Source: Pseudomonadota bacterium (lineage in GTDB: Bacteria; Pseudomonadota; Gammaproteobacteria; Xanthomonadales; Rhodanobacteraceae). From it: a stretch of DNA of 38,180 nt. The translations under genes were made by a program, and so were the position numbers. The notes under the pieces were generated by a model that saw only the letters and a list, made by a program, of their open reading frames with translations, did no database searches and was not told where the DNA came from. The DNA lies in the NCBI GenBank assembly GCA_021792975.1, contig JAJYTR010000019.1:1-38180 (forward strand), in the 5' to 3' direction. Position 1 is the first letter of the stretch; each line of letters starts with the position of its first letter. Positions 24,316 to 38,180 of this stretch are shown here, piece by piece.

Positions 24316-24368
24316 GGGCGGGCTGCCTAATCGCTGCTAACCTGCCGCCTCACGTCCGCATGGCGTAG

Positions 24369-24583: not shown

Positions 24584-24690
24584 GCCACCGTCTCCCGCCC
24601 ACCGGGTGAACCGCGCCCCGGCGGATGGCGTGCGGTACGATCAGTCGCGGGCGGCTGTCGCAGTGATGGTTCCGCTTGTGTCGTGGCCCG

Positions 24691-24720: not shown

Positions 24721-24731
24721 AGAGGTTGACC

Positions 24732-25031
24732 GTGAACGCCGCCATCGAACGCATCGTGGTGCAGGCCACCACACAGGAAAAGCGCGCCATAGTCGCCAAG
24801 GCCAAGAAGCTCGACATGACCGTCTCGGAACTGATGCGCAGCGGTGCACAGGCGTACCTGCCGGCCGACGCCGACCTCGTCGCCCTGGCCGAGGCGGCCC
24901 AGGCCTCCGCCCGACGCTCCATGGCTGCGATGGATGATGCATTTGCGCGCATCGCTGCGAGCAACGCGCGCATCGAGGCGATGGAAGCGGCCGCCAAGGC
25001 GCCGGCATCCCGTCGCGGCCACACGCCGTAA
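24732..25031 (+). CDS. Small ribbon-helix-helix-like protein with a coiled-coil tail, function unknown
   Basis: This is a 99-residue protein. The N-terminal part (about 4-45) has a short beta strand (IERIVVQAT) followed by two helices (QEKRAIVAKAKKLDMT, VSELMRSGAQAYL). This pattern fits ribbon-helix-helix proteins of mobile elements, such as mobilisation accessory proteins or antitoxins. The rest is an Ala-rich helix likely to form a coiled coil. I choose the GTG at 24732 because AGAGG precedes it and the frame to the left looks non-coding. It overlaps the following gene by one base (TAATG), so they form a coupled pair. It lies between the integrase remnant and tRNA-Val, so it may belong to the old island. 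I do not recognise a specific family. Confidence 0.6.
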   Translation: MNAAIERIVVQATTQEKRAIVAKAKKLDMTVSELMRSGAQAYLPADADLVALAEAAQASARRSMAAMDDAFARIAASNARIEAMEAAAKAPASRRGHTP

Positions 25032-25231
25032 TGGGCGGCGCACAGACGATCTGGAATGCGCTCACCACGATCATCCAGATGGAGGGGCGGGTGACGCAGC
25101 AGGCGCAATTGCTGACCGCGCAACAAGCCAAGATCGAGACCCTCACTGAGCGCGTCATCCGCCTCGAAGCGCAGATGGAGATGCTGCTGATCGGCGCCGG
25201 CGCCAAGTCGCCGAGCAAGCGACTGAGGTGA
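25031..25231 (+). CDS. Small coiled-coil protein, partner of the preceding gene
   Basis: This 66-residue protein starts with an ATG that shares its first base with the last base of the upstream stop codon. The sequence is helical, with heptad-like spacing in QLLTAQQAKIETLTERVIRL and EAQMEMLLIG, and a basic C-terminus (KSPSKRLR). No enzyme motif or membrane segment is present. The tight coupling to the gene before it suggests the two proteins interact through their coiled coils. Function unknown. The gene ends 51 bp before the tRNA-Val terminator, which is read from the other strand. Confidence 0.55.
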   Translation: MGGAQTIWNALTTIIQMEGRVTQQAQLLTAQQAKIETLTERVIRLEAQMEMLLIGAGAKSPSKRLR

Positions 25232-25281
25232 CTGTTGTCGCGTGTTTGAAGTTGATCAATTTGCTGCACTACCATCCGGGC

Positions 25282-25311
25282 AAGAAATAAGGCCCGATTC
25301 GAGGTCGGGCC
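25282..25311 (-). terminator. Intrinsic terminator of tRNA-Val
   Basis: On the minus strand, GGCCCGA and TCGGGCC form a 7-bp stem (25291-25311) followed by the T-rich TTATTTCTT (to 25282). It lies 19 bp past the tRNA 3' end and is correctly oriented for it. Confidence 0.8.
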
Positions 25312-25329
25312 TATCGTCGAGTGATCGAA

Positions 25330-25404
25330 TGGTGGGCGGTACAGGGTTCGAACCTGTGACCCCTGCCGTGTGAAAGCAGTGCTCTACCGCTGAGCTAACC
25401 GCCC
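25330..25404 (-). tRNA. tRNA-Val (anticodon CAC)
   Basis: The minus strand folds as a complete 75-nt tRNA with encoded CCA (25330-25332). The acceptor stem is GGGCGGT/ACCGCCC, the D arm GCTC...GAGC and the anticodon stem CTGCT/GGCAG (one G-T pair). The loop TTCACAC gives anticodon CAC, and the T arm is ACAGG-TTCGAAC-CCTGT. It decodes GUG, a frequent codon in this GC-rich genome. The promoter and terminator are both visible. Its 3' end faces the integrase remnant, the usual polarity for an integration site, but no duplicated 3' tRNA segment is seen on the far side in this window. Confidence 0.96.
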
Positions 25405-25785: not shown

Positions 25786-25822
25786 ACTTTCGGGAATGCG
25801 TCCGGTCCAAACGGACGACGAC

Positions 25823-25890
25823 GGGAGAAGGCATGCCTCCCGGCCCCATGGCCGAACCACCTTCGCGGTTGATGATGCCTGCCGTGCCGG
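25823..25890 (+). promoter_or_regulatory. Fluoride riboswitch (crcB motif) upstream of crcB
   Basis: The aptamer is recognised from its pairing scheme. Stem GGGAG (25823-25827)/CTCCC (25837-25841) encloses a loop with GGCAT (25830-25834). That loop forms the pseudoknot with ATGCC (25875-25879) in the conserved TGATGATGCCT segment. The second hairpin is AACC...GGTT (25855-25870). An extra small hairpin CGGCC/GGCCG (25841-25854) is inserted between them. The downstream arm overlaps the terminator at 25878-25915. Fluoride binding would hold ATGCC in the pseudoknot, block the terminator and turn on crcB. The class is firmly established; this member is called from sequence only. Confidence 0.88.
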
Positions 25891-25915
25891 CCACCCCGGC
25901 GCGGCGGGTTTTTTT
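25878..25915 (+). terminator. Riboswitch-controlled intrinsic terminator before crcB
   Basis: A 13-bp stem (25878-25890 with 25896-25908, two G-T pairs) closes a CCACC loop and is followed by seven Ts (25909-25915). Its left arm starts inside the pseudoknot strand of the aptamer, so the two structures exclude each other. Confidence 0.88.
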
Positions 25916-25951
25916 GCGGGTGGAATCCGGCCGCGCCTGGCGCAGAGGAGC

Positions 25952-26341
25952 ATGATGAACTGGGGCATCTGGGGAGGCATCGCCGTCGGTGCCGTGCTGG
26001 GCGCCTGGCTGCGCTACGGCTTCGCCCTGCTGCTGAACCCGGTCTTTCCCACCCTGCCGCTGGGCACGGTGGCGGCCAATCTGCTGGGCGGCTTCCTGAT
26101 GGGCATCGCCATCAGCAATTTTCCCCCGTACATGGGCCTGCCGGTGGAGATGCGCCTGGCGTTCGCCACCGGATTCCTGGGCGGGCTGACCACCTTTTCC
26201 ACCTTCACCGCCGAGTCGGTGACGCTGTGGCTGCGCGAGCAATGGGGGTGGGCGCTCGCGCACACCGCGGTGCATCTGCTGGGCTCGATCGCGCTGTGCC
26301 TGGCCGGCATCGGCCTGGGGCGCCTGCTGACGCGGCATTGA
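25952..26341 (+). CDS. crcB: Fluoride ion channel/exporter CrcB (Fluc)
   Basis: This 129-residue inner-membrane protein has four transmembrane helices and works as an antiparallel dimer that lets fluoride leave the cell. Family signatures are present: GAVLGAWLRYGF, PLGTVAANLLGGFLMG and FATGFLGGLTTFSTFT, which carry the pore Asn, Phe and Thr/Ser residues. Two adjacent ATGs (25952 and 25955) are possible starts; GAGGAG is better spaced for the second. It is a single full-length gene, so the dual-topology homodimer form applies. It is controlled by the upstream fluoride riboswitch and followed after 12 bp by the DUF190 gene. Confidence 0.96.
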   Translation: MMNWGIWGGIAVGAVLGAWLRYGFALLLNPVFPTLPLGTVAANLLGGFLMGIAISNFPPYMGLPVEMRLAFATGFLGGLTTFSTFTAESVTLWLREQWGWALAHTAVHLLGSIALCLAGIGLGRLLTRH

Positions 26342-26353
26342 GAGGAGGAGGCG

Positions 26354-26683
26354 ATGAACGGCTGCGCACTGCGTTTCTACATGCACGAGAACCAGAAGCA
26401 TCGGGGCAAGCTGCTGTACGAGTGGCTGCTCGAGCAGGCCAAGCGCGACGGCATCCACGGCGGCTCGGCATTCCGCGCCATCGCCGGGTTCGGCCGGCAC
26501 GGGCGCCTGCACGAACAGACGTTTTTCGAGCTGGCGGCCGACCTCACCGTCCTGGTCGAATTCGTGGTCACGCGGGAAGAAGCCGACCGGCTGATCGCCC
26601 TGGCCGAGGAAGACCAGGCGCCGCTGTTCTACAGCCGCTACCAGGTCGAGTTCGGCGTCACCGTGCCGCATCCGGCCAAGTGA
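26354..26683 (+). CDS. DUF190 family protein, fluoride-operon partner
   Basis: This 109-residue soluble protein of the DUF190/UPF0166 family shows LRFYMHENQKHRGKLLYEWL, GGSAFRAIAGFGRHGRLHE and a C-terminal TREEADRLIAL segment. The fold resembles GlnB-like small trimers, so a ligand-sensing or regulatory role is often assumed but unproven. It is second in the riboswitch-controlled operon, 12 bp after crcB with an AGAGGAGGAGG site, and its stop overlaps the next start (TGATG). DUF190 genes often accompany crcB in bacteria, which supports a role in fluoride handling. No metal-binding or catalytic motif is obvious. Confidence 0.88.
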   Translation: MNGCALRFYMHENQKHRGKLLYEWLLEQAKRDGIHGGSAFRAIAGFGRHGRLHEQTFFELAADLTVLVEFVVTREEADRLIALAEEDQAPLFYSRYQVEFGVTVPHPAK

Positions 26684-27339
26684 TGCGGCGCATCGCCGCG
26701 ATGCGGGAGACCACCGTGGGCCTCGAAATCCTGCTGATCCGTCACGGCGAGGTGCCCGGCATCGATCCGCCGCGCTTTCGCGGACGCCAGGACCTGCAGT
26801 TGACCGGTCGCGGCCGGGCCCAGGCGCGCGCCATCGGCGACTGGGTGCGCGGCCATTTCGAACTGGACGCGGTGTACTCGAGCCCGCTGTCGCGCTGCAT
26901 CGATACCGCGCAGGCCATCGCCGCGCCCCTGGGCCTCGCGGTGGAGACCTGTGCGGAGATCAGCGACACCGACTACGGGCGCTGGACCGGCCTGAGCCAC
27001 CCACAGGCGGCGGCCCGCGACCCGGAAATCTATCGCGCATGGAAGCACGACCCCGGCATCCATCCGCCGCCCGACGGCGAGACCCTGCGCCAGGTCGAGG
27101 TGCGCGCCGCCGGCGCCCTGAACGGCATCCGCCGCCGCCACCCGGCCGGCGCGGTGGCGATGGTCACCCACGACGCGGTGATCCGCGCGCTGGTGTTGCA
27201 CCTGCTGCAGGCGCCGCTGACGCACTACGGCGTGCTGAGGCAGGATCCGTGCGCCGTGAACCGGATCGAATGGCGGGAGGACGGCAGCCCGGTGGTCGCC
27301 CTGCTCAACAGCACCGCGCATCTGGCCGGAGCGGCGTGA
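26683..27339 (+). CDS. Histidine phosphatase family protein (phosphoglycerate mutase-like)
   Basis: This 218-residue cytoplasmic phosphatase has the phospho-His motif LLIRHGE near residue 20, the second Arg region SSPLSRCIDTAQA, the catalytic Glu segment EISDTDYGRWTGLS and the late His in VTHDAVIRAL. It most resembles CobC-like alpha-ribazole phosphatase or broad-specificity phosphatases, but no cobalamin genes are nearby. The start overlaps the DUF190 stop, so it belongs to the fluoride operon. Fluoride inhibits several phosphoryl-transfer enzymes, so a replacement or repair role is possible (inference). A second ATG at 26701 is an alternative start. Confidence 0.85.
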   Translation: MRRIAAMRETTVGLEILLIRHGEVPGIDPPRFRGRQDLQLTGRGRAQARAIGDWVRGHFELDAVYSSPLSRCIDTAQAIAAPLGLAVETCAEISDTDYGRWTGLSHPQAAARDPEIYRAWKHDPGIHPPPDGETLRQVEVRAAGALNGIRRRHPAGAVAMVTHDAVIRALVLHLLQAPLTHYGVLRQDPCAVNRIEWREDGSPVVALLNSTAHLAGAA

Positions 27340-27352
27340 GCACGCGCCTCAC
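27336..27352. terminator. Short hairpin spanning both stop codons of convergent operons
   Basis: GTGAG and CTCAC pair around a 7-nt loop and include the stop codons of the phosphatase gene (+) and the last gene of the Ehr-like operon (-). Only 9 bp separate these two genes. The 5-bp stem without a T-run makes it a weak terminator candidate. Confidence 0.25.
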
Positions 27353-29310
27353 AGCACGCCGACCCCCAGCACCGCCAGCAGCAGCAGGCCGATCAGGGCC
27401 AGATACAGATTCATGTCGCCCGACTGCAGACCGGCGACGCGATCGGACAGCCACCACACCGCGCGCGTGACCGGACGGAACAGCCGCGCGGCGAACAGCG
27501 GCGCGATGCGCTGCTCGAAGCTGAGCCGGCGCAGGAAATATTCGCGCTCCACGTGTTCGTGCTCGACATCCAGGCGCGGGCGGTAGATGAAACTGTAGAA
27601 CACCTGCACCGCGTGCGAAAAGGTCAGCGCGGTGGTGGCCGCGCGCGGTGCCGGTGCGTGGCCGCCGAACCACACGGGCGCCCGGCGCACGCCATGACGG
27701 CTGCGTGCCCACAGCACCAGCGCGACCGGCAGCAGTGCCAACAGCGGCATCACGATGACCAGCAGCGTCGGCGAGATGAAGGCGAACCGGGCCGTCAGCG
27801 GCACCAGCAGCGGCCCTTCGCGCAGTTGCAGCGACGAGTGCGCGAACCATTGCCGCGACACCGGATCGAGCGCCCGCAGCCACCAGGGCATCCCCGCCGC
27901 CAGCGCCAGCGCCAGCAGGCCCAGCAGTCCCACCGCCAGCGCATGGCCCACGGGCACCGGCTTGCGGTCGGCATCCTCCTGCGCCCTGCCCTGGCAGCCC
28001 AGGCCGATCGCCTTGACGAAGGTGGCATACGCCAGAGCGGCGGTGAGCGCCAGCCCCACGCCGCCCAGTGCCAGCGTCAGCCGGCCGGCAAGATCAGGCA
28101 CCTGGAAGTTCTGGAACAGGGTCTGGAACACGTACCACTCGCTGACGAAACCGGCCTGCGGCGGCATGCCGGCCAGGCTCATGCCGGCCAACACGATGCC
28201 GATCCCGAATATCCACGGGCTGGCGCGCAGCAGGCCGGACTGCCGCAGACGGTAGTGGCCACGCGCATGCCACGCGCCATCCGCGCCCAGCAGCATCGCG
28301 CCCTTGGCCAGGCTGTGCCCGGCCAGATGCAGCAGACCCACCAGCCAGGCCAGCATGGCCAGATCGGCCAGGCCGGCGCTGCGGAACACCAGTGCCGCCC
28401 CCAGCGCCAGAGTGGCGATGCCTGCGTTCTCGGCCGAAGACAGGCCCAGCAGTTGCCGCCAGTCGTCCGCCTGCAGCGCATACAGCACGGCCAGGATGGC
28501 GCTGAGCGCAGCCACCGCCACGGTGACGATGCCCAGCAGTTCGCTGGCCGGCAGCCACAGCAGCAGACCGCGCGCCAGCGCATACCACGCGGCGTTGAGC
28601 ACGATGCCGGAGAGCAGGCTGCCGCTGGCGCCGCTGCCGCTGGCGTAGGCACCGGCGAACCACTCGTAGAACGGCAGCAGGCCCAGCTTGGCGCCGAAGC
28701 CGAGCAGCAGCAGCACGCCCAGCCCGAAGACGGCGGCACCGGCAAGATGCGCCGCGCCGGCGGCAAAGCCGTCCATGGCCATGCTGCCGCCCGGCAGGGC
28801 GAAAATCAGCCAGGCCGCCAGCAGGGCGACGGCGCCCACCTCGAGCAGGGCCAGCATGTTCAGCGTCGCCCCACCCTCGTCGTCCTGTACGCCCAGACGT
28901 TCAGCCAGCAGCATCGCCGCGCCGCCCAGGCTCATCAGTTCCCAGGCCACCAGGAACACCACCCCGCCCCGCACGCCCATCACGCCCAGCGCGCCACAGA
29001 GGGCGCCGATGGCACCCACGTACCAGACGCGCTGGCGCGCGTCGGGGCTGCCCAGCGCCAACGCCGGCGTGGCGGCGATGCTGCCGAACAAGGCCAGCCA
29101 GCAGGCGGCGCCATCCAGCTCGAAATGCGCCGCGCCGATGCCGGCGATGCGCAGCGCATGGCCGCCCAGCAGGGCGCCCGCGCTCGCGAACACCACGCCG
29201 GCGCTGCCCAGCACGGCCAACAGGCGCGTCGGCGCAGGGGTCGGCAGCAGCAGCGCGAGCAGCGCCGCCAGCAGCAAGGCCAGGATCGCCAGTGACAGCA
29301 GCTCAGCCAT
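27349..29310 (-). CDS. HyfB-like antiporter subunit of the Ehr-like complex
   Basis: This 653-residue membrane protein has about 14-16 transmembrane helices and belongs to the proton-translocating antiporter family (NuoL/M/N, HyfB, MrpA/D). The ion-path acidic and basic residues are visible: Glu in LVAWELMSLGG, Lys in GFGAKLGLLPFYEWFAGAY, and the His/Lys region LLHLAGHSLAKGAMLLG. The last third includes FSHAVQVFYSFIYRP and YFLRRLSFEQ, typical of HyfB tails, then a final helix. The start ATG overlaps the stop of the fused ferredoxin/NuoB-like gene by 8 bp. It is the last gene of the operon, whereas in E. coli hyf this subunit comes near the front. It would couple electron transfer to ion pumping. 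Confidence 0.88.
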   Translation of the reverse strand: MAELLSLAILALLLAALLALLLPTPAPTRLLAVLGSAGVVFASAGALLGGHALRIAGIGAAHFELDGAACWLALFGSIAATPALALGSPDARQRVWYVGAIGALCGALGVMGVRGGVVFLVAWELMSLGGAAMLLAERLGVQDDEGGATLNMLALLEVGAVALLAAWLIFALPGGSMAMDGFAAGAAHLAGAAVFGLGVLLLLGFGAKLGLLPFYEWFAGAYASGSGASGSLLSGIVLNAAWYALARGLLLWLPASELLGIVTVAVAALSAILAVLYALQADDWRQLLGLSSAENAGIATLALGAALVFRSAGLADLAMLAWLVGLLHLAGHSLAKGAMLLGADGAWHARGHYRLRQSGLLRASPWIFGIGIVLAGMSLAGMPPQAGFVSEWYVFQTLFQNFQVPDLAGRLTLALGGVGLALTAALAYATFVKAIGLGCQGRAQEDADRKPVPVGHALAVGLLGLLALALAAGMPWWLRALDPVSRQWFAHSSLQLREGPLLVPLTARFAFISPTLLVIVMPLLALLPVALVLWARSRHGVRRAPVWFGGHAPAPRAATTALTFSHAVQVFYSFIYRPRLDVEHEHVEREYFLRRLSFEQRIAPLFAARLFRPVTRAVWWLSDRVAGLQSGDMNLYLALIGLLLLAVLGVGVL

Positions 29311-30115
29311 CGATGCGTCCCCCATGCAGCCGCTGCCGGCTGCGCCCCAGCAGCAGCAGCAATGCGTGCATGATCGCCGCCGGTGTCGGCGGGCAGCCGG
29401 GCAGATACACATCGACCGGAATCGCCGCCGCGGCGCCGCTGCCACCGGCATAGCCCTCGCGCGCCATCGCGCCGCTGATCGCGCAGGCGCCCATGGCCAT
29501 CACCCATTTCGGCTCGGGCATGGCCTCCCAGGCCGCCTGCAGCGCCTCCTGCATGGGCGCGGTGACGGTGCCGGTGACCAGCAGCAGGTCGGCCGCGCGC
29601 GGCGAGGCGGTGAAGAAGATGCCCAGCCGGTGCAGGTTGTAGAACGGGTTGAGCAGCGCCTGCAGTTCGCTCTCGCAGCCGTTGCAGGAGCCGGCGTCGA
29701 CATGGCGGATGTGCAGGCTGCGTTTGAAACGCCGCGCCATCAGCTCCTGCACCTGCGCGGTGATGCGATGCGCGTGCGGATCGAATTGCAGGTCCTCGCG
29801 CCGGCGCACGCCCGGTGCCCGGTCATGGCCGGGCATCAGCACATCGGCCGGACAGACTTCGATGCAGCGCTGGCAGGCGATGCAACGCCCGTAATCGAGT
29901 GCGATGCGTGTACCGCCGGCCTGTCCCTCGCCCGGCTCGCTGGCGGTGAGCGCCGCGGTCGGACAGGACGCGATGCATGCGGCGCAATCGGGTGCGCAGT
30001 CGCGGGCGGCGATGCGCGGCAGGCCCAATGGCACATCGCGCACCGGCGCTTCCGCGTCGGGCCCGTCGCGGGTGGCCTTGCCGCGCGCCAAACCGAACAG
30101 TGTCCACAAGGCCAT
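29303..30115 (-). CDS. Fused 2x[4Fe-4S] ferredoxin/NuoB-like subunit (HyfH-HyfI fusion)
   Basis: This 270-residue protein joins two complex subunits that are usually separate. The N-terminal ferredoxin domain (about 30-100) has two clusters: CAPDCAACIASCP (Cys40/44/47/51, with the first spacing CxxxC in place of CxxC) and CIACQRCIEVCP. A loop leads to a NuoB/HycG-like domain (about 125-255) whose four proximal-cluster cysteines remain in SCNGCESE, MGACAISG and LPGCPPTP. It should pass electrons from a soluble donor to the site at the large subunit. No NADH- or formate-oxidising module is in the operon, so a ferredoxin-type donor is likely (inference). It ends within the start of the HyfB-like gene. 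Confidence 0.88.
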   Translation of the reverse strand: MALWTLFGLARGKATRDGPDAEAPVRDVPLGLPRIAARDCAPDCAACIASCPTAALTASEPGEGQAGGTRIALDYGRCIACQRCIEVCPADVLMPGHDRAPGVRRREDLQFDPHAHRITAQVQELMARRFKRSLHIRHVDAGSCNGCESELQALLNPFYNLHRLGIFFTASPRAADLLLVTGTVTAPMQEALQAAWEAMPEPKWVMAMGACAISGAMAREGYAGGSGAAAAIPVDVYLPGCPPTPAAIMHALLLLLGRSRQRLHGGRIDG

Positions 30116-30124
30116 GGCGCGCTC

Positions 30125-31591
30125 CTAGCGGTCGCAGCCGGCGATGGTGCTGCCGAAACTGGCTTCGTTGATGGCGTAATCCATCATGTTGCTGTCGTGC
30201 ACGGTGTAGGGAAATACCCGCCAGTTGGAGTACGAGGGCGACTTGATCTTGACCCGCGCCAGCCGTCCGGCAGGATCCATGTGCGCCACGTAGTAGACCG
30301 AACCACGCGGCGATTCCGCCCAGCCCACGCCGAGACCCCGGGCCGGAACGGGACAATCGGTGCGCACGGCGCCGGCGGGCAGATCCCGGGCCAGTGCGCG
30401 CAGCAGCCGCAGGCTCTCCAGCAGCTCGCCGCAGCGCACGCGGTAGCGCGCATACGCGTCGCCGTCGCCATGCAGGATGATTCTGGGCGGATGCGCGTCG
30501 TAGGCGGCATAGGGATGGTCGCGGCGCAGGTCGCGGTCGAGCCCGGAGGCGCGCTCCACCGGCCCGGTGGCGCCCTGGTCGAAGGCCACCTGGCGCGGCA
30601 GCGGCCCGGTGGTGTGCAGGCGGTCGAGGAAACTCGAGGTGCGCTCGAGCTGATCGAGGTAGCGCACGCTGTCCCGCTGCAGCCGCGCCAGCTCCTGCGG
30701 AACGTGCGCGGGCAGATGCAGATCGCGGCGCAGGCCGCCCGGCACCAGCACGTTCATCAGCAGGCGGTGCCCGCAGACGGCGGCGTTGATCTGTTTGGCG
30801 CGCTCCTCCAGCAGCCGGCCCTCGGCCTGGCCCACCTTGAGCGTGGTGGTGTCGGCCAGATGCCCTAGGTAATGCAGGTGGTTGTACGTGCGCTCCAGCT
30901 CGGCCAGCAGGCTGCGCCAGGCACGTGCGCGCGGCGGCGGTTCGATGCCGGCGGCATCCTCGATGGCCTGGCAGTAGGCCAGCGCATGCGCCAGCGCGCC
31001 GACGCCCGAGACGCGCTCGGCCAGGTGCACCGCCGCGTCCGCCCGCAGTCCTTCGAAACGCTTTTCCATGCCGCGGTGCTTGAGAAACAGGCGCGGCTGG
31101 TAACGCAGGATGCGCTCGCCCATGTAGAAAAAACGGAACTGCGCCGATTCGAACACGTCGGCCCGGATCGGGCCGAAGTCCAGTTCCTGGATGTCCTCGC
31201 CGGCCACATCCGGCAGCACGTGCGGCGCCGGGAAACGGCCGCAGCCATCCGCACACGACAGCGGCGCGGGCTGCCCCGCGCGGCGCTCGATCACCAGCGG
31301 ATGCGGCTCGGGGTGGTGGACCAGATCCACCCCGGACAGGTCCTGCATTTCGCGCTCGTACCAGCCCAGCAGCGGCACGTGCGCGGCCATGCTGGGCAGG
31401 CCGCCGGGCAGCGCATCCACGCACCACAGCTCCAGCGGCTTGCCCGCGCCGGGCGAGGCCAGGTAGCAGACCTGCAGAGGTCCGGGCTGCGTGTGCGCGT
31501 ACACCATCTGCATGCGGCCACCGCCGGCCAGCAGCGTCTCGATGGCGCCGGGCAACCCGGCGGCGTGCATGCGCATGACCAGCTTGTTCAT
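30125..31591 (-). CDS. HyfG/NuoCD-like large subunit lacking the NiFe-binding cysteines
   Basis: This 488-residue protein fuses a NuoC-like N-terminal part (about 1-130, with GWYEREMQDLSGVDLVHHPEPHPLV) to a NuoD/hydrogenase large-subunit part. True group 4 [NiFe] hydrogenases carry RxCGxC and a C-terminal DPCxxC. Here the first reads RVSGVG, with Ser195 and Gly198 at the ligand positions. The C-terminus reads GSTIAGC, with Thr482 and Gly485. All four nickel ligands are lost, while the surroundings (ALAYCQAIE, ELERTYNHLHYLGHLAD) stay well conserved. No maturation (hyp) genes or C-terminal protease are present. So the protein cannot hold a NiFe site, and it fits energy-converting-hydrogenase-related (Ehr) complexes. 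The start overlaps the HyfF-like stop as ATGA. Confidence 0.9.
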   Translation of the reverse strand: MNKLVMRMHAAGLPGAIETLLAGGGRMQMVYAHTQPGPLQVCYLASPGAGKPLELWCVDALPGGLPSMAAHVPLLGWYEREMQDLSGVDLVHHPEPHPLVIERRAGQPAPLSCADGCGRFPAPHVLPDVAGEDIQELDFGPIRADVFESAQFRFFYMGERILRYQPRLFLKHRGMEKRFEGLRADAAVHLAERVSGVGALAHALAYCQAIEDAAGIEPPPRARAWRSLLAELERTYNHLHYLGHLADTTTLKVGQAEGRLLEERAKQINAAVCGHRLLMNVLVPGGLRRDLHLPAHVPQELARLQRDSVRYLDQLERTSSFLDRLHTTGPLPRQVAFDQGATGPVERASGLDRDLRRDHPYAAYDAHPPRIILHGDGDAYARYRVRCGELLESLRLLRALARDLPAGAVRTDCPVPARGLGVGWAESPRGSVYYVAHMDPAGRLARVKIKSPSYSNWRVFPYTVHDSNMMDYAINEASFGSTIAGCDR

Positions 31592-33042
31592 ACCGCCGCC
31601 CCCAGCGCATGGGCGATCTGCCCGAACCAGTGCGTGAACAGCGGCGGCCACCACAGACCGAACAGCAGCAGTGCAGCGACGGCCAGCGCCAGCGGCAACC
31701 CGGACAGCACGCCTGGCAGCGGGCCGGCGGGCGCGGCCGGCGCCGGGCGCGTGAACATCGCCCGGAAGTGGTCGAGGAGGCCGGCGAAGATGACGATCAG
31801 CAGCAGCAGGAACAGCACCGCCACCCAGCGCGTGCCGGGGCGCTGCCAGCCGGCCATCAGCACGCTCAGCTCGCTGCGGAACAGACCGAACGGCGGCGCG
31901 CCGGTGATGGCGACGGCAGCGGCCAGCCACAGCCAGGCGAAGCCGGGCATGGCGGCCGGCAGATCGCCCATGCACTGCATGTCGTGGCTGCCGAAGCGGC
32001 GCACCGCACTGCCGGCGCCGATGAACAGGGCGGTCTTGTTGAGGCTGTGGTTGAGCATGTGATACAGCGCGCCGAACACGCCCAGCGCGCCGCCGAAGCC
32101 GAAGCCCAGCGCCACCACGCCCATGTGCTCGACACTGGAGTACGCCATCAGGCGCTTGACGCCGCGCTGGCGCAGGATGAACAGCGCGCCGACGACCAGC
32201 GAGGCCGCTCCCAGCGCGATCAGCACCCGGTGCGGCCATGCGCCGTGGCCCGCGGTATCCGTGGCCGCCAGGAAGCGCACGATGCCGAGCATGGCGCAAT
32301 TGAGCAGCGCGCCGGAAAGCATGGCCGAGACCGGCGCCGGCGCCTCGCTGTGCGCATCCGGCAGCCAGGTGTGCATCGGCGCCAGTCCCACCTTGACGCC
32401 GTATCCCACCAGCGACAGCAGAAAGCCCACCTGCAGCAGTACCGCCGGCATGCGCGGCGCGATGGCATCCAGCGTGCTCCAGTCCAGCGTGTAGGTCGGC
32501 CCCAGCACGAAGGTGCCGCCCCAGTACAGCAGCACCGTGCCGAGCAGGGCGATGCTGATGCCGCCGGAGACGATGATGATGTATTTCCACGCCGCCTCCA
32601 TGCTCTCGGCGCTGCGCTCGTAGCCGACCAGGAAGGTGCTGACCAGCGTGGTCAGCTCGATGCCGATCCAGTACACCCCGATCATGTTGGCCATCGGCGC
32701 AGCGAACATGGTCCAGGCGAACAGCGCGAACAGCGCATAGAAATGGGGCAGCCGCCGCGTGTCCTCGCCGTGGCGCATGCAGTCCAGCGCGAACAGCGAG
32801 GACAGCAGGTACACCGCAGCCGTGCACAGCATCACCCAGGCGCCCAGGCGGTCGAGATACAGCAGCCGGTCGAAGAACTGCCGCGGCCGACCGGCGCCGA
32901 TGAGCAACAGGATGCTCGCCGGCAGACATACCAACGCCGCCAGCAGATTGGCCCATCCCGCCAGCCGCCGCACCAGCAGCGACCACAGCACCGCCAGCAG
33001 CGGCGCGCCCAGCAGCAGCAGGATCAGCGCGTGCGTGCCCAT
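31588..33042 (-). CDS. HyfF-like antiporter subunit of the Ehr-like complex
   Basis: This 484-residue membrane protein has about 14 transmembrane helices and is the second antiporter-like subunit. The key residues are present: Glu in VYWIGIELTTLVSTF, Lys in YGVKVGLAPMHTWLPDAHSEAPAPVSAM, a Lys/His stretch in AYSSVEHMGVV and the central MLNHSLNKTALFIGAGS. This is the classic proton-channel half motif of NuoM/N and HyfF. It overlaps the large-subunit gene by 4 bp and starts 1 bp after the HyfE-like stop. Only two such subunits are present here, where E. coli hydrogenase 4 has three (HyfB, D, F). Confidence 0.92.
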   Translation of the reverse strand: MGTHALILLLLGAPLLAVLWSLLVRRLAGWANLLAALVCLPASILLLIGAGRPRQFFDRLLYLDRLGAWVMLCTAAVYLLSSLFALDCMRHGEDTRRLPHFYALFALFAWTMFAAPMANMIGVYWIGIELTTLVSTFLVGYERSAESMEAAWKYIIIVSGGISIALLGTVLLYWGGTFVLGPTYTLDWSTLDAIAPRMPAVLLQVGFLLSLVGYGVKVGLAPMHTWLPDAHSEAPAPVSAMLSGALLNCAMLGIVRFLAATDTAGHGAWPHRVLIALGAASLVVGALFILRQRGVKRLMAYSSVEHMGVVALGFGFGGALGVFGALYHMLNHSLNKTALFIGAGSAVRRFGSHDMQCMGDLPAAMPGFAWLWLAAAVAITGAPPFGLFRSELSVLMAGWQRPGTRWVAVLFLLLLIVIFAGLLDHFRAMFTRPAPAAPAGPLPGVLSGLPLALAVAALLLFGLWWPPLFTHWFGQIAHALGAAV

Positions 33043-33043
33043 C

Positions 33044-33724
33044 TCAGCCCGCCAGCTTCTGCAGCGCCTGGCTGCCGGTGGCGCCCACCGCGCTCAGCAG
33101 ATAGCGCACCAGCACCGCAAAACAGGTCACCGCCACCAGCAGGTCGAACAGCAGCACCAGTTCGATCATCAGCGGCATGCCCGGCACCAGGATCTGCGAA
33201 CCAAGGAACACGCCGTTCTCCAGCAGCAGGACGCCCAGCACCGAACTGATCGCCTCGCGCCGGATCGCCAGCATGAGAAAGCCGATCAGCTTGATCGACA
33301 GCATCACCGTCAGCGCCAGGATCACCACCCGCGTCTCGATACCCACGCCGTGACCGATGCGGTAGGCCACCACCACCGCGAAGATCACCAGCGCGGCGCC
33401 CATCACCAGCGCGGTGGAAGGCCGCACGATCTCGTGCAGCTCGCGGTTGACGTGCAGGCGGTTGAGCACCCACAGCAGCATCAGCGGCAGCACCAGGCCG
33501 CGGAACAGCGCGGTCAGCGCCGCCACGAAGTACAGCTCGGCATAGCCGCCGGCGTAGCCCACCAGCGCCGAGAGGATGGCGATCAGCCACGACTGCGCGG
33601 CGAAGGCCAACATGTAGTCCTTCAGCCAGCGCGAGCCGAGCATCACGAACGCCAGCACCAGCGCGCTGATCGCGATCAGGCTGAAGAGCGAAGCGAGTAC
33701 GGGGTCGAGATGCAAGGCCAGCAT
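33044..33724 (-). CDS. HyfE-like membrane subunit
   Basis: This 226-residue membrane protein has about seven helices. The C-terminal part is NuoK-like: VMLSIKLIGFLMLAIRREAISSVLGVLLLENGVFLGS, with the conserved Glu in LENG, corresponds to the Glu of the NuoK proton path. The N-terminal helices resemble the extra segment of HyfE. The start is the ATG ahead of LALHLDPVLASLF, 4 bp after the HyfC-like stop, and it ends 1 bp before the HyfF-like start. It has no cofactor motif. Together with the HyfC-like subunit it should form the part of the membrane arm next to the large subunit. Confidence 0.88.
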   Translation of the reverse strand: MLALHLDPVLASLFSLIAISALVLAFVMLGSRWLKDYMLAFAAQSWLIAILSALVGYAGGYAELYFVAALTALFRGLVLPLMLLWVLNRLHVNRELHEIVRPSTALVMGAALVIFAVVVAYRIGHGVGIETRVVILALTVMLSIKLIGFLMLAIRREAISSVLGVLLLENGVFLGSQILVPGMPLMIELVLLFDLLVAVTCFAVLVRYLLSAVGATGSQALQKLAG

Positions 33725-33728
33725 GACG

Positions 33729-34670
33729 TCACCGGATGTTGTTGGCGATCAGCGCCAGCACCGCGAACACGAACGCGGCGGCCAGCGGTTCCTGGTAGCG
33801 GTAGAAGCGCAGCCGCGACTGCACCGTTTCCACGCCGATCACCGCGCCGGCGATGACGACGAACTTGACGGCGATGCCGGCCAGCGTGCCGGCGACGCCG
33901 ATCGCGCTGCCCTGCGCCGACAGCCCCCAGGGCAGGATGAACACGTTGGCGAAGATGGTGTACAGGATGAACTGCTTCATCATCCCCGCCCACTTCAGCA
34001 GCGCCAGCAGCGGGCCGGAGTACTCCAGTACCCGCGCCTCCTCGATCATGTACACCTCGATGTGGGTGCTGGAGTGGATCGGCAGGCGGTCGGTTTCCAC
34101 CAGCAGCAGCACGAAGAACGCCGCCACCAGAAACAGATGTGCGGGACTCCAGTACACCTCGGGCTGCTGCACCAGTTCGTGGTTGACCACGAACGGCAGC
34201 ATGGCTCCTGCCATCAGGGTGATGCCCACGAACACCAGGATCAGGATGGGCTCGGCGAGGATGCCGATCAGCACCGTGCGGCTGCTGCCCAGGCCGCCGT
34301 AGCTGCTGCCGGAGTCCATGCCGGCGAGGTTGATGAAGAACGAGCCCAGGGTGAGGATCAGGCCGCCGCCCAGGATGTCGCCCATATCCGAGAGCGGCAG
34401 CGGATAGTTGGTGAGCACCGGGATCAGGATCGGCACCGTCGTCATCGCGGTGAACGCGACGATGGGCGCCGCGACGAAGATCCAGCTCGCGCTTTCCGGC
34501 AGCACCGTCTGCTTGCCGAACAGTTTGATCAGGTCGCGCCAGGGCTGCAGCAGACCGGGACCGGTGGCGCGCTGCACGCGCTCCTCGTAGCGCAGGATGA
34601 AACCCTGCAGCAACGGCGCCAGCAGCAGCACGGTCAGTACCTGGCCGATCTGCAGCAGCGCGTCACGCAC
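33729..34670 (-). CDS. HyfC/NuoH-like membrane anchor subunit, first gene of the Ehr-like operon
   Basis: This 313-residue, eight-helix protein connects the hydrophilic arm to the antiporter subunits. NuoH/HyfC features include GLLQPWRDLIKLFGKQTVLPESAS, AMTTVPILIPV, VETDRLPIHSSTHIEVYMIEEARVLEYSGPLLALLKWAGMMKQ (quoted in parts: the acidic loops VETDRLP and MIEEARVLEYSG are the ion-path and quinone-side loops) and a conserved Arg/Glu-rich middle. The only in-frame start is GTG at 34670, preceded by GCGGGG. The ATG at 34675 is out of frame. The leader of about 105 nt carries a fluoride aptamer and a stem that hides this ribosome-binding site. Confidence 0.9.
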   Translation of the reverse strand: MRDALLQIGQVLTVLLLAPLLQGFILRYEERVQRATGPGLLQPWRDLIKLFGKQTVLPESASWIFVAAPIVAFTAMTTVPILIPVLTNYPLPLSDMGDILGGGLILTLGSFFINLAGMDSGSSYGGLGSSRTVLIGILAEPILILVFVGITLMAGAMLPFVVNHELVQQPEVYWSPAHLFLVAAFFVLLLVETDRLPIHSSTHIEVYMIEEARVLEYSGPLLALLKWAGMMKQFILYTIFANVFILPWGLSAQGSAIGVAGTLAGIAVKFVVIAGAVIGVETVQSRLRFYRYQEPLAAAFVFAVLALIANNIR

Positions 34671-34672
34671 GG

Positions 34673-34753
34673 CATGCCCCGCGTCCGGCGCGTTCGCAGC
34701 AGACAGCCAACCGGGATTTGCGCGTCGAAGTCGACGTGTTCCTGCGAGGCATG
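34673..34753 (-). promoter_or_regulatory. Predicted ribosome-binding-site-sequestering stem in the riboswitch leader
   Basis: On the minus strand CATGCCTCGC (34744-34753) can pair over 10 bp, with one G-U, with GCGGGGCATG (34673-34682), which is the Shine-Dalgarno region of the HyfC-like gene. A GGAGT (34760-34764) could also pair with the aptamer strand ACTCC (34782-34786) and compete with the fluoride-bound pseudoknot. Together these suggest translational control. Inference from pairing only. Confidence 0.5.
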
Positions 34754-34774
34754 ACCATCACTCCAGGTGGTGGG

Positions 34775-34826
34775 TCTCGTAGGAGTCATCAGCCCGTCGG
34801 GGGCGTTCGCGGCGAACTCCATCGCC
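34775..34826 (-). promoter_or_regulatory. Fluoride riboswitch upstream of the Ehr-like operon
   Basis: Minus strand, from 34826: GGCGATGGAGTTCGCC is the P1 stem-loop (GGCG/CGCC). Loop bases GGAGT (34816-34820) pair with ACTCC (34782-34786) in TGATGACTCCTACG, the most conserved segment of the class. The GCCC...GGGC hairpin lies between. The match to the crcB-motif consensus is essentially perfect. The aptamer starts about 15 nt past the predicted transcription start and ends about 105 nt before the GTG of the HyfC-like gene. Formate-hydrogenlyase-like genes have been reported among those linked to this riboswitch class. Confidence 0.93.
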
Positions 34827-34846
34827 TGCTTGCGCGATTTGCCGCG

Positions 34847-34875
34847 ATTACATGCCGGCGCCGCCGGCTTGTCAA
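34847..34875 (-). promoter_or_regulatory. Promoter of the Ehr-like operon
   Basis: TTGACA (34870-34875, minus strand) and TGTAAT (34847-34852) with a 17-nt spacer: 11 of 12 consensus bases. Transcription would begin near 34840, just ahead of the aptamer. Confidence 0.85.
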
Positions 34876-34953
34876 TCTGCCGGAGCACGGCGGTCGCGCG
34901 CGCGGCGCCGATCCAGCGCCCGCCAGGGTCCACGGCCGCACGATCGCCGATGG

Positions 34954-34983
34954 TTGACAGGCCGGCAAAGCCCTTGGGAGTAT
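34954..34983 (+). promoter_or_regulatory. Candidate promoter of the cfa operon
   Basis: A perfect TTGACA (34954-34959) is followed by a weaker -10, GAGTAT, at 34978-34983 (18-nt spacer). It would place the transcription start near 34988-34990, at the first base of the plus-strand aptamer. Confidence 0.5.
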
Positions 34984-34987
34984 CGCC

Positions 34988-35044
34988 GCGGGGATGGCAT
35001 TCCCCCGCTGTACGAATCGCCGCATGGCTGATGATGCCTACCGA
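34988..35044 (+). promoter_or_regulatory. Fluoride riboswitch upstream of cfa
   Basis: The GCGGGG (34988-34993)/CCCCGC stem encloses ATGGCATT. GGCAT (34996-35000) pairs with ATGCC (35034-35038) in TGATGATGCCTACC, the conserved 3' element. The GCC-GCAT-GGC hairpin (35019-35028) lies between. This is the same architecture as the other two aptamers in the window, on the opposite strand from the neighbouring one and about 160 bp from it. It lies 154 nt before the cfa start. No terminator with a T-run follows, so control may be at translation. Confidence 0.92.
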
Positions 35045-35113
35045 GCATGCGTGGCGGCGCGCGCGCCTCGGCCGGGCGCGCACGACGGGCCCTGCGGGGC
35101 ATGCACGCAGCTC
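35043..35113 (+). promoter_or_regulatory. Long hairpin after the cfa aptamer, possible expression platform
   Basis: GAGCATGCGTG (35043-35053) pairs with CACGCAGCTC (35104-35113), with one bulged A, and encloses a second GCGCGCC/GGGCGCGC stem. It begins at the last bases of the aptamer. A separate GGCC-GGAA-GGCC hairpin (35181-35192) covers the cfa ribosome-binding site. How fluoride would switch these is not clear from sequence. Confidence 0.35.
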
Positions 35114-35198
35114 GCGTACGGATCGCCCTGACGCGGAGTGCAACGATGACGTGCCCAGGCAGGCGGCTTGCAACGGATCGGCCGGAAGGCCCGGCGCC

Positions 35199-36317
35199 AT
35201 GAACCCGTCGGGCCTCCGCGCGCGCGCGGAACGTCTCCTCGCCGCGGCCGATGTGCGGATCGGCGGCGCGCGCCCGACCGATCCGGTGGTCCACGACGAA
35301 CGCCTGTACGCGCGCGCGTTCGCGCACGGATCGCTGGGCTTCGGCGAGGCGTACATGGACGGCTGGTGGGACGTGCAGGATCTTGCCGGCATGCTCACGC
35401 GCATCCTCGGTGCGCACATCGACGACCGGCTGCACACCCTCGATGCGCTGATCTCGCACCTGCGCGCGCGCTGGCTCAACGCGCAGCGCGGCCGCCGCGC
35501 CTGGGTGGTCGGCAGGCGCCACTACGACACCGGCAACGCGCTGTTCGAGGCCATGCTGGGCAAGCGCCTGGTGTACAGCTGCGGCTACTGGGCGCAGGCG
35601 GACAATCTCGACGACGCGCAGGAAGCCAAACTCGATCTGGTCTGCCGCAAGCTGCGGCTGCAGCCCGGCATGCGCGTCCTGGATATCGGCTGCGGCTGGG
35701 GCGAGGCGTTGAAGTTTGCCGCCGAGTGCTACGGGGTCAGCGGCGTGGGCATCACGGTGTCCAGGGAGCAGGCGACGTGGGCCCGGAACCTGTGCAAGGG
35801 CCTGCCCGTCGAGATCCGCCTGCAGGACTACCGCGAGGTGCAGGACCGCTTCGACGCGGTGTTCTCGATCGGCATGTTCGAGCACGTCGGCGCGCGCAAC
35901 TACCGCACGTACTTCGAGACCGTGCGCCGCGTGCTCGAGCCCGAGGGACTCAGCGTCCTGCACAGCATCGGCAGCAACGAGGCACCGAGCAGGCCGGACC
36001 CGTGGATCGAGCGGTACATCTTTCCCAACTCGATGATTCCGGCCGCCAGCCAGGTGGCCGCCGCCCTGGAGGGCCTGTTCGTGGTCGAGGACTGGCACAA
36101 CTTCGGCGCCGACTACGACCGCACGCTGTGTGCCTGGAAGACGAACTTCGATGCCGCCTGGGAGCGCCTGCGTGGCCGGTTCGACGAACGGTTCCGGCGC
36201 ATGTGGCATTTCTATCTGTGCGTGTCGGCTGCGGCGTTCCGCACGCGGCGCAACCAGCTCTGGCAGCTCACGCTCTCCCCGCAGGGCGTGCCGGGCGGCT
36301 ACCGCGTGCCGCGCTGA
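35199..36317 (+). CDS. cfa: Cyclopropane-fatty-acyl-phospholipid synthase
   Basis: This 372-residue enzyme converts cis double bonds of membrane phospholipids to cyclopropane rings using SAM. The N-terminal lipid-facing part has DERLYARAFAHGSLGFGEAYMDGWWD, quoted here only as the hallmark GSLGFGEAYMDGWWD. The catalytic domain has HYDTGNALFEAMLG, YSCGYW, motif I VLDIGCGWGEALKFAA, SIGMFEHVGARNYRTYF and a C-terminal FYLCVSAAAFRTR. Length is close to E. coli Cfa (382). The ATG at 35199 follows GGAAGG; the open frame to its left covers the riboswitch and is not coding. Cyclopropane rings are known to lower membrane permeability to protons and raise acid tolerance, which makes fluoride (HF) control plausible. 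Confidence 0.95.
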   Translation: MNPSGLRARAERLLAAADVRIGGARPTDPVVHDERLYARAFAHGSLGFGEAYMDGWWDVQDLAGMLTRILGAHIDDRLHTLDALISHLRARWLNAQRGRRAWVVGRRHYDTGNALFEAMLGKRLVYSCGYWAQADNLDDAQEAKLDLVCRKLRLQPGMRVLDIGCGWGEALKFAAECYGVSGVGITVSREQATWARNLCKGLPVEIRLQDYREVQDRFDAVFSIGMFEHVGARNYRTYFETVRRVLEPEGLSVLHSIGSNEAPSRPDPWIERYIFPNSMIPAASQVAAALEGLFVVEDWHNFGADYDRTLCAWKTNFDAAWERLRGRFDERFRRMWHFYLCVSAAAFRTRRNQLWQLTLSPQGVPGGYRVPR

Positions 36318-36364
36318 ATGCCGCCCGGCAGCGTTCCGGCTGATCCCGCGCGAGCGCACGGTCC

Positions 36365-38180
36365 ATGTTCACCGAGAGCCAGCGTCGCCATATCCAGCAA
36401 AGCCTGGCGCATATCGAGCAGACGCTGGGCGACGCCCTGCTGCTGGCCGCGCGGTCGCGGCACGACGAAGTGTTCCCGCGCTACCGCGCGGCACTGCCCG
36501 CCGCCGACACCGCGGCGCTGCAGGCCGCGCTGCAACGCCTGCGCGGCGTGCTGCGGCGCTTCGCGCATGCCCATGGCCAGACCCTGCCCGCGGCAGGCGC
36601 GATCGACCCGGCGTGGGCGCTGGACACCCAGATCACCCTGCTGCGCAACGTGGCGCTGGAGCTGCGGCCGGCCCACCTGGCGGGCTATGGCGCGCTGGAT
36701 GAAGGCGCCGTCATGGCCTGCCGCGCGCTGGCGGCCGAAGTGGGAGCCGTGCTCGAGGGGATGCAGGACGCGCTGCGCAGCGTCGGCGGCCTGCCCGCGC
36801 CCGCCGCCGCGGACGCGCTGACGGCGCTGCTGCTCGAGCTGATCCCGCGCTACCGCCTGGGCGAATACCGCGCCCGCGTCGCCGCGCTGGCCGAGACCGG
36901 CGGCCGCGTCGAGGTGGTCGTGCTCGGCCGCGTCAGCAGCGGCAAATCCTCGCTGCTCAACGCCCTGATCGGACGCGAGCTGTTGCCGGTGGGCATCGTC
37001 CCGGTGACGACGGTGACCACGCGCCTGATCGGCGGCGTTGCATCCATGCTCGAGCTGGTCTACCTCGATGGCCGCAGCGAGCAGCGACCGCTCGCGGAGC
37101 TGGCCGCTGCCGTGGACGAACGCCGCAACCCCGGCAATCGCCGCCGCCTGCGCGAGGTGCGCGTGGGTCTGGGTACGCCGCCCTGGGCCGCAGGCGTGGT
37201 GTTCACCGATACCCCGGGACTGGGCGCGCTGGAGGGCGAGGCCAGCGCCATGGCCATGGATTACCTGCCCCGCTGCGATCTCGGCCTGGTGCTGGTGGAC
37301 GCCGGCGCGACCGCCACCGCGCTGGAGCGCGATCTGCTGCAGGCCCTGCACGAGAGCGGTGCCGCGCTGCGCGTGGTGCTGGCCAAAGCGGACCTGCTGG
37401 GCGCGGAAGCCCTGTCGCAGCAGCAGGCGCATGTCGCGGCCAGCCTGGGCGGAGCCATCGGCGCTGTCGTACCGGTCGACGTCCTCAGCAGCCAGCCGGC
37501 CTGGCAGGCGGCACGCGAACACTGGCGCGAGTCCACCCTGCGCCCGCTGCTGGATGCGCTGCGCGACGAATCCGCGACGCGCGCGGTGCAGCGCGCGCAT
37601 GTACTGGGCCGGCAGGTGCTGGCCAGCCTGCGCCTGGCGGCACACGGGGATGCCGCCGGGCCGGCCGCATTCGACAGCACGGCGCAGCTGGCGCTGGATC
37701 AGGCGCTGCAGGAGCAGCACCGCCACATCGCACGCTACGCCGAGCAGGCCGGCGACGCGTTGCTGCGGCATGCGGTCGAACAGGAGCACGATGCCCAGGC
37801 CTGCGCGCATCAGGCCGGCGATCTCGCCCATCGACTGGCACAGCAGACGCGCGCGGCCGTGTCCGCGAGCGCGGCCGCCGAAGCCGGCGCCCTGCCGGCA
37901 TTCGCCTGGCCGTGCGGGTTCTTGCCGCAGGCGCCGGCGCTGCTGCCGCGGCCGCTCCGGCGCACTTGGCGCCTGCATCGCCTGCGCCAGGAACGGCGGG
38001 CGGATCTGCAGGCCGCCTGCCGGGCGTACGCGGCGGCACTGCACACCTGGCTGGACACCGCCGGACAGGCGGCGCAGCGGCAACTGCGCGCCGGCCAGAG
38101 CGCCGGCGCCGGCGACGCGCAGCAACTGCAGCGGGACATCGTCCGGCTGGCACGCGCGCTCGGGCAAGCCGACCCACCGG
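36365..38180 (+). CDS. Dynamin-like GTPase, 3' end outside the window
   Basis: The open frame starts 47 bp after cfa and has no stop in the remaining 605 codons. An all-helical N-terminal region (about 1-175) precedes a GTPase domain. P-loop is GRVSSGKSS (Lys194), switch Thr is in PVTTVTTRL, and G3 is DTPGLG (Asp282). The base-recognition motif reads AKAD where NKxD is usual. A long helical part follows, with a Trp/Leu/Pro-rich stretch near residues 515-535 that could touch or enter the membrane. This fits bacterial dynamin-like proteins, which remodel or protect membranes. The close spacing suggests co-transcription with cfa from the riboswitch leader. The ribosome-binding site is weak. Confidence 0.8.
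   Translation, partial: MFTESQRRHIQQSLAHIEQTLGDALLLAARSRHDEVFPRYRAALPAADTAALQAALQRLRGVLRRFAHAHGQTLPAAGAIDPAWALDTQITLLRNVALELRPAHLAGYGALDEGAVMACRALAAEVGAVLEGMQDALRSVGGLPAPAAADALTALLLELIPRYRLGEYRARVAALAETGGRVEVVVLGRVSSGKSSLLNALIGRELLPVGIVPVTTVTTRLIGGVASMLELVYLDGRSEQRPLAELAAAVDERRNPGNRRRLREVRVGLGTPPWAAGVVFTDTPGLGALEGEASAMAMDYLPRCDLGLVLVDAGATATALERDLLQALHESGAALRVVLAKADLLGAEALSQQQAHVAASLGGAIGAVVPVDVLSSQPAWQAAREHWRESTLRPLLDALRDESATRAVQRAHVLGRQVLASLRLAAHGDAAGPAAFDSTAQLALDQALQEQHRHIARYAEQAGDALLRHAVEQEHDAQACAHQAGDLAHRLAQQTRAAVSASAAAEAGALPAFAWPCGFLPQAPALLPRPLRRTWRLHRLRQERRADLQAACRAYAAALHTWLDTAGQAAQRQLRAGQSAGAGDAQQLQRDIVRLARALGQADPP

Follow-up and report, generated by a model that had tools for sequence, protein, structure and literature searches.

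The fluoride cluster and its genes

The window analysed here is positions 1-38,180 of contig JAJYTR010000019.1 (assembly GCA_021792975.1, forward-strand coordinates), from a gammaproteobacterium of the family Rhodanobacteraceae, and its right-hand part carries three fluoride riboswitch aptamers (crcB motif, Rfam RF01734), each before a separate operon. Relatives that bear a name (Fulvimonas, Dyella, Frateuria and Rhodanobacter) put the source organism in this family or close to it. Aptamer 1 (25815-25888, + strand, GGCAU/AUGCC pseudoknot, 32.1 bits) precedes crcB; aptamer 2 (34773-34835, - strand, GGAGU/ACUCC pseudoknot, 53.1 bits) precedes a six-gene operon resembling those of hydrogenase-4 (Hyf) and complex I, here called hyf-like; and aptamer 3 (34981-35047, + strand, GGCAU/AUGCC pseudoknot, 46.8 bits) precedes cfa. 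A first-pass annotation had proposed three crcB-motif aptamers before operons of these families, and both the aptamers and the gene families are confirmed: Infernal with RF01734, the check it suggested, matched all three positions when run on both strands, the loci being right and their exact ends off by up to 10 bases.

Aptamers 2 and 3 pass the curated gathering score of 34 in cmscan, and aptamer 1 falls 1.9 bits under it, appearing in E-value mode only. The genome-wide search (2.28 Mb, 101 contigs) returned exactly three matches, all in the window, with aptamer 1 at E 4.1e-7; further aptamers may exist in the source genome, because the assembly is 76% complete. A lineage covariance model scores aptamer 1 at 55.2 bits, but aptamer 1 is among its 37 training rows. 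In these 37 aptamers of the window and its relatives all 185 pseudoknot cells are paired, three of the five pairs showing two-sided changes (covariation). Three places drawn at random from 2.28 Mb would lie within 9.23 kb of one another with a probability of about 6e-5. A chance origin was rejected on the genome-wide search, the covariation and the clustering, and the presence of three RF01734 aptamers within 9 kb is confirmed.

The core of aptamer 1 reads GAAGG in place of the consensus GAUGG. The change is common to the crcB-side aptamers of four of eight genus members (the window and loci L041, L043 and L049; relatives are denoted by locus, L, or genome, G) and is not in those of L050, L014, L015 and L019; it might alter the fluoride affinity of the crcB aptamer. 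A separate observation concerns divergently oriented aptamers, such as the pair at 34773-35047, which mostly differ in pseudoknot code (six of seven pairs, with L033, L037, L050 and L040 among the loci).

Downstream of aptamer 1 lie crcB, encoding a Fluc fluoride channel (25952-26341, +; PF02537, 1.2e-25) that reaches the cut-off of its family model (NF010792, 126.7 bits against 125), a DUF190 protein gene (26354-26683, +; PF02641) and a gene for a histidine phosphatase family protein (26683-27339, +; PF00300, His_Phos_1, 1e-53). The operon behind aptamer 2 runs, on the - strand, in the order hyfC-, E-, F-, G-, fused H-I- and B-like. Its first gene encodes a NuoH-like membrane subunit with a GTG start (hyfC-like, 33729-34670; PF00146, 1.2e-33; best PDB match, subunit 4 of formate hydrogenlyase, FHL) and is followed by a hyfE-like membrane subunit gene without Pfam match (33044-33724; NF008556, 45 bits, below the cut-off of 136), a hyfF-like antiporter-type membrane subunit gene (31588-33042; PF00361, 1.5e-52; hydrogenase 4 subunit F model NF005044, 344.8 bits, below 610) and the gene for a hyfG-like large subunit (30125-31591; PF00346, PF00374). 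The fused hyfH-hyfI-like gene (29303-30115; PF01058 and Fer4 families, aligned to 7z0s_G) encodes two 4Fe-4S ferredoxin motifs and a NuoB-like domain that retains four cysteines, and the last gene encodes a hyfB-like antiporter-type membrane subunit (27349-29310; PF00361; best PDB match FHL subunit 3; hydrogenase 4 subunit B model NF005086, 262 bits, below 667). Behind aptamer 3 stand cfa, for cyclopropane fatty-acyl-phospholipid synthase (35199-36317, +), which passes an equivalog model (NF008686, 562.3 bits, cut-off 400) and is the sole copy found in the 76% complete genome, and a dynamin-like GTPase gene cut by the window end (36365-38180, +; PF00350, 8.6e-19). Across the three operons the Pfam families are thus CrcB, DUF190, His_Phos_1, NADHdh/Proton_antipo_M/Oxidored_q6/Complex1_49kDa, CMAS and Dynamin_N.

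Leader designs

The leaders are predicted to differ in design, with a terminator at crcB and, at hyfC, a Shine-Dalgarno (SD) sequence that copies a pseudoknot strand and opens a short leader open reading frame (ORF). The predicted intrinsic terminator of crcB (25878-25915, +), recognised by sequence and fold, consists of a hairpin at 25878-25908 and U7 at 25909-25915, and in the fold prediction its base takes up the 3' pseudoknot strand of aptamer 1; the accessible part of PMC13273304 describes such strand exchange between pseudoknot and terminator for the fluoride riboswitch class. At the hyf-like operon a second GGAGU (34760-34764, -), identical to the 5' pseudoknot strand of aptamer 2, sits 17 nt past the 3' strand (ACUCC), directly before the start codon of a 29-aa leader ORF (34663-34752, -) that is out of frame with hyfC and whose stop overlaps the hyfC start by 8 nt. 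In the unbound ensemble of the window leader, this copy pairs with ACUCC at a probability of 0.48-0.64 per pair, and withholding the pseudoknot strands raises the accessibility of the first three SD bases from 0.32/0.26/0.31 to 0.63/0.56/0.93. Analysis of the sequence and fold of the cfa leader did not find a clear terminator or SD switch.

The same arrangement recurs among relatives. Of 61 parsed hyf leaders, 37 contain a downstream copy of the 5' pseudoknot strand within 120 nt; mononucleotide shuffles would give 8.2. A wider survey took in 328 aptamers, from which 71 unparsed and 37 duplicates were dropped to leave 220 distinct ones. Of its 81 GGAGU-type aptamers, 37 have a copy followed by a start codon, none has a copy followed by a T run and 42 have no copy; for the 129 of GGCAU type the counts are 7, 11 and 97, respectively. 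An SD was recognised by pattern in 52 of 74 hyf leaders (21 lacked one and one had no recognised pseudoknot strand), and in 49 of these 52 the ORF that it opens is not in the hyfC frame. Of the 46 distinct leaders that passed the filters for this analysis, 37 have the leader-ORF stop close to the start of hyfC, at -12 to +15 nt, as against 9 of 53 for the control frame, and in 25 leaders the ORF overlaps that start by 4 or 8 nt. Because the peptide sequences vary, the leader ORF is read as a device for translational coupling to hyfC, which we infer from these positions, rather than as a functional peptide.

A hydrogenase relative without its metal site

The hyfG-like subunit (HyfG) aligns over most of its length with HycE of E. 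coli FHL, and where HycE has RVCGICGFAH it reads RVSGVGALAH; the C-terminal CxxC is missing as well, the protein ending in SFGSTIAGCDR. Among homologues fetched by protein similarity, neither the N-terminal nor the C-terminal CxxC of the nickel-iron (NiFe) site was present in any of the best 80 of 338 (0/80 each). Both are also missing from 22 proteins of the two clades, A and B, that are described below, the window's included (23 were found, one of them, from clade B of G010, being partial). HypD is required to build NiFe sites, and it was not found in 15 of 18 carrier genomes, the 76% complete source genome (G000) among them; it is present in G011, G012 and G223.

These findings bear on the reading to which the literature label for fluoride-riboswitch genes points, in which the six genes encode an FHL or hydrogenase-4 and fluoride shifts metabolism to fermentation. 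The structural comparisons speak for it. An E. coli FHL subunit is the best solved-structure match for four of the five subunits searched, HyfF instead matching another antiporter-type subunit best, and the AlphaFold model of HyfG (14-row alignment, mean pLDDT 83.6, last six residues below 50) has HycE (FHL 7z0s_E) as its best PDB match, with a TM score of 0.91 at 26% identity. The literature does so too: as far as the accessible parts of these sources go, mutS and formate hydrogen lyase genes were already placed behind the crcB motif by Weinberg 2010 (PMC2864571), and a 2024 review ranks formate hydrogen lyase with the enzymes most often found behind fluoride riboswitches (PMC11139923). Against it stand the loss of both motifs throughout the homologues read, the absence of HypD from most carriers, and formate dehydrogenase alpha, which is over the cut-off in just 5 of 18 carriers, in G348 about 15 kb from the hyf aptamer. 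The FHL identity was rejected on the lost NiFe ligands and the mostly absent HypD, and the fermentative explanation as a whole is given almost no probability; the results suggest that the genes of this clade, at least, do not encode an FHL, the name in use for genes behind this RNA class in the literature.

Other residues are kept. The NuoB-like domain has its four cysteines at the places where FHL subunit 7 carries them, and both antiporter-type subunits keep Glu and Lys positions that align with solved homologues and that we take to be pump residues. At the positions of HyfG that correspond to the Tyr and His of the complex I quinone site, the His is kept and the Tyr is replaced by Gly.

The window complex accordingly resembles several known systems without coinciding with most of them. 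Its subunits are like C, E, F, G, H+I and B of formate hydrogenlyase (Hyc) and Hyf, which supply the nearest solved structures for most of those searched, but unlike Hyc and Hyf it lacks the four Cys ligands that define group 4 NiFe hydrogenases, has no formate dehydrogenase gene in its operon, has H and I fused, occurs in carriers that usually lack HypD, and matches the hydrogenase-4 models below their cut-offs. It shares with respiratory complex I (Nuo) the NuoB-, NuoD-, NuoH- and NuoL/M/N-like parts and the quinone-site His, but NuoEFG, the NADH module, is not among the six genes and the Tyr is replaced. The accessible part of PMC6349859 describes Ehr complexes as group 4 hydrogenase relatives without Ni/Fe ligands and with antiporter-like subunits, for which redox-coupled ion translocation is suspected. 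The window operon falls within this definition, having a hydrogenase-like large subunit without NiFe ligands together with Mrp-antiporter-like subunits, and differs from other Ehr complexes in that its clade is distinct and tied to fluoride aptamers. The complex thus looks like an Ehr-type assembly that has lost the NiFe site, retained the pump residues and become dedicated to fluoride.

Linkage of complex and aptamer

The tie to fluoride was examined by a search that was blind to RNA, in which a 14-row large-subunit alignment was run, by protein similarity alone, against one genome for each of 84,980 species; the results cover the best 80 of the 338 homologues found. In 69 of the 70 testable loci (those with at least 3.6 kb of upstream sequence) an aptamer directly precedes hyfC, 3237-3727 nt upstream of where the large subunit matches; the remaining one (L219) has it 4.5 kb upstream. 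Five of the 70 loci come from genomes that trained the aptamer model, and outside the training set 64 of 65 are positive; Rfam's own model confirmed the aptamer before hyfC in all seven loci given to it. Two of 207 aptamer matches at these loci (L188:1 and L197:15315) were dropped, leaving 205, and L210 and L212, which have identical aptamer positions and scores, are both counted in the 70-locus and leader tallies. The records behind these loci are labelled Proteobacteria and Acidobacteria.

A class sample of 342 genomes searched for the large subunit separates the homologues by score: seven genomes scored 776-861 bits (clade A), four scored 324-336 bits (clade B) and the others at most 311. 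All seven clade-A genomes have an aptamer before hyfC. In all four clade-B genomes an aptamer lies upstream on the same strand; the Rfam model detects it in three, and in G170 only the lineage model does (28.4 bits). Of 32 homologue loci searched, some of them short (L246, 4.7 kb), 29 belong to neither clade, and only one of these has a match at E<=0.001 (L232, 19.6 bits). In a 70-row tree, for which the tool warns of long branches among rows outside A and B, clades A (34 rows) and B (7 rows) are each set apart from the rest by a supported branch (100/100 for A, 100/99 for B), and 21 of the 29 other homologues make up a neighbouring group, mostly with CNKSVNGSYSGHDL-like tails at the C-terminal end. 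Since the nearest relatives of the complex stand almost always behind a fluoride aptamer, it is suggested to be dedicated to fluoride stress.

Clade B merits a remark of its own, as a second, paralogous NiFe-less hyf-like operon that often has its own fluoride aptamer (L043 7984-15549, L041 9291-16998, L128, L098, L140, L221 and L242); two of its aptamers use a GGGAC/GUCCC pseudoknot. The source genome also holds, on contig C70 (L234), a second NiFe-less large-subunit homologue of another clade, with no fluoride aptamer in the 9 kb read.

The fluoride regulon in relatives

A fluoride aptamer (E<=0.001) occurs in 160 of the 227 genomes searched of the source family and, in the class sample, in 29 of 370 genomes. 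Most of the family genomes listed have one, and many are found in G454 (14), G479 (10), G019 (9) and G021 and G550 (8 each). The 14 aptamers of G454 (L081-L085) stand against a single one in most of the other genomes listed for its genus (13 of 17). Several of the nearest relatives' records are metagenome bins.

In the regions fetched, 123 aptamers were located after four weak matches had been dropped from 87 + 40 (L122:239 at 17.4 bits, L036:11137, L050:16557, and L044:7243, which lies inside a called gene on the opposite strand). The genes behind them include crcB, CLC-type channels, DUF190, enolase, inorganic pyrophosphatase, a MutS-like pair, an SNF2 helicase, HEAT and Hsp70-like proteins, major facilitator superfamily (MFS) transporters, dynamin-like GTPases, cfa and the hyf-like operon; of ten genes behind otherwise unassigned aptamers, three lack a Pfam match. 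Among 42 family genomes, picked from hit lists (38 + 4) and not at random, 14 have the hyf-like operon behind an aptamer and 21 have a window-like cfa behind an aptamer of the same direction, in 18 of these as crcB-DUF190-cfa, with an MFS gene interposed in three. The operon families of the window thus recur behind fluoride aptamers in other genomes, and the clustered fluoride regulon that the first-pass annotation had proposed is supported as part of a recurrent one.

An alternative holds that the locus is a shared envelope or acid-stress locus in which the aptamers mark only the history of crcB, those of hyf and cfa being relics. Decay may indeed occur, as the aptamer at crcB scores under the Rfam cut-off and its core is altered. 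The complete pseudoknot pairing with its compensatory changes, the hyf aptamers in 69 of 70 loci across two phyla, and the recurrence of aptamers before cfa in differing arrangements all run counter to relics, and we consider this alternative very improbable.

Some further associations were noted in passing. In several genomes a fluoride aptamer is followed directly by a pair of MutS domain V proteins (L032 8704-11983, L038, L047, L092, L095 and others). Also behind aptamers are a LuxR-type regulator with an autoinducer domain, a GH15 enzyme, universal stress proteins, a dihydroxy-acid dehydratase and an outer-membrane efflux protein (L183 437-1454 and 2207-4220, L217 1149-2371, L155 4507-5519, L156 2454-4445 and L220 16116-17540). 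Just left of the cluster in the window, at 23911-25404, lie an ORF for an IS21 helper (IstB), a weak NikA-like mobilisation protein (below cut-off) and a tRNA-Val gene. In G005, G008 and G011 the tRNA-Val gene again lies no more than 0.6 kb from the crcB aptamer, and in G012 it is 8 kb off; because of this recurrence near the crcB locus it need not be an integration site, and a simple tRNA-borne island was rejected, though the window cluster may be mobile.

A probable fluoride-dedicated complex: interpretation

Taken as a whole, the locus is probably a three-operon fluoride regulon that includes a NiFe-less, Ehr-type, proton-pumping complex dedicated to fluoride stress. According to the accessible part of the 2024 review, hydrogen fluoride (HF) enters cells, splits, acidifies the cytoplasm and loads it with F-, and exit of F- through Fluc depends on the membrane potential (PMC11139923). 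An induced complex I-like pump beside crcB would fit a need set by HF entry and by potential-driven export. As F- builds up, each aptamer would fold and turn its operon on. At crcB the F--held pseudoknot would act as an antiterminator, releasing transcription from the terminator. At the hyf-like operon without F-, ACUCC of the aptamer would pair with the SD GGAGU and block translation; with F-, ACUCC would be held in the pseudoknot, ribosomes would start the leader ORF and translation would pass into hyfC. The complex would most likely pass electrons via its ferredoxin-type subunit to an acceptor and pump H+ out, which would reverse the acidification and the fall in membrane potential that HF entry brings, and would drive the passive exit of F- via CrcB. 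The membrane itself would be the target of Cfa and the dynamin-like GTPase, whose action might lower HF leakage.

Several observations weigh against this reading. At crcB, four genus relatives have a similar hairpin, but the U run after it is shortened or interrupted, most severely in L043 and L050. In the window hyf leader, withholding the pseudoknot strands also closes the last two SD bases (0.11/0.33 to 0.08/0.12), and the minimum-energy fold of the whole leader does not contain the ACUCC:GGAGU hairpin. The exact strand copy is missing from 24 of the 61 parsed hyf leaders, 13 of the 74 leaders were not parsed, the 21 leaders without an SD lack it by the pattern used, and 7 of the 49 out-of-frame leader ORFs have at most three codons. 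In G008 and G011, cfa adjoins the hyf aptamer and has none of its own. The linkage figures cover 70 loci, 10 of the 80 being too short for the aptamer test, and these 80 are the best of the 338 homologues, with 258 below them. The Gly at the quinone-site Tyr position belongs here also.

The complex might instead be induced by fluoride and yet be no proton pump, serving as an Ehr-type redox enzyme or a cation/H+ antiporter, for instance in Na+ or pH homeostasis. Its membrane subunits are in the Mrp-antiporter family and its active site is lost, and the 2024 review, in its accessible part, ranks Na+/H+ antiporters second only to exporters among fluoride-riboswitch classes (PMC11139923). A pure antiporter, on the other hand, would need neither a large subunit so well conserved across Pseudomonadota and Acidobacteriota nor the NuoB-like cysteines kept in the window, and the pump residues are retained; this explanation is unlikely, though it deserves to be taken seriously. 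It is distinctly improbable that the hyf-like complex is a primary redox-powered exporter of F- (or of F- with H+), for which the whole clade evolved; if it were, carriers need not rely on passive Fluc channels.

The interpretation of the first-pass annotation is partly supported. Comparison across genomes bears out the shared regulon; the joint action that the annotation ascribed to the operons, namely exporting fluoride, re-energising the membrane and lowering its permeability to HF, is a hypothesis. Its assignment of the six genes as complex I-like is borne out by the families; it did not mention the published FHL label, the NiFe loss, the near-constant link of the clade to the aptamer in the loci tested or the differing leaders.

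Relation to the literature and meaning

As in the known fluoride riboswitches, the window RNAs show the RF01734 aptamer, the pseudoknot and the 5'-leader positions, and the crcB terminator overlaps a pseudoknot strand. They differ in number, with three inside 9 kb in the window and as many as 14 in a single genome among relatives, and in the putative coupling through a leader ORF at hyfC, which does not appear in the accessible parts of the fluoride riboswitch descriptions consulted. In the literature searched, which included few subscription papers, the complex is nowhere described as NiFe-less or fluoride-dedicated, and neither cfa nor dynamins are tied to fluoride riboswitches.

A simple rule is proposed for translation control by the fluoride riboswitch class, and membrane lipids, through cfa, and dynamins become tied to fluoride stress. 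At the loci tested, a NiFe-less relative of complex I stands almost always behind a fluoride aptamer, so that growth conditions as simple as fluoride at low pH would serve to test what it does, and the fluoride link may offer a defined entry to the Ehr complexes.

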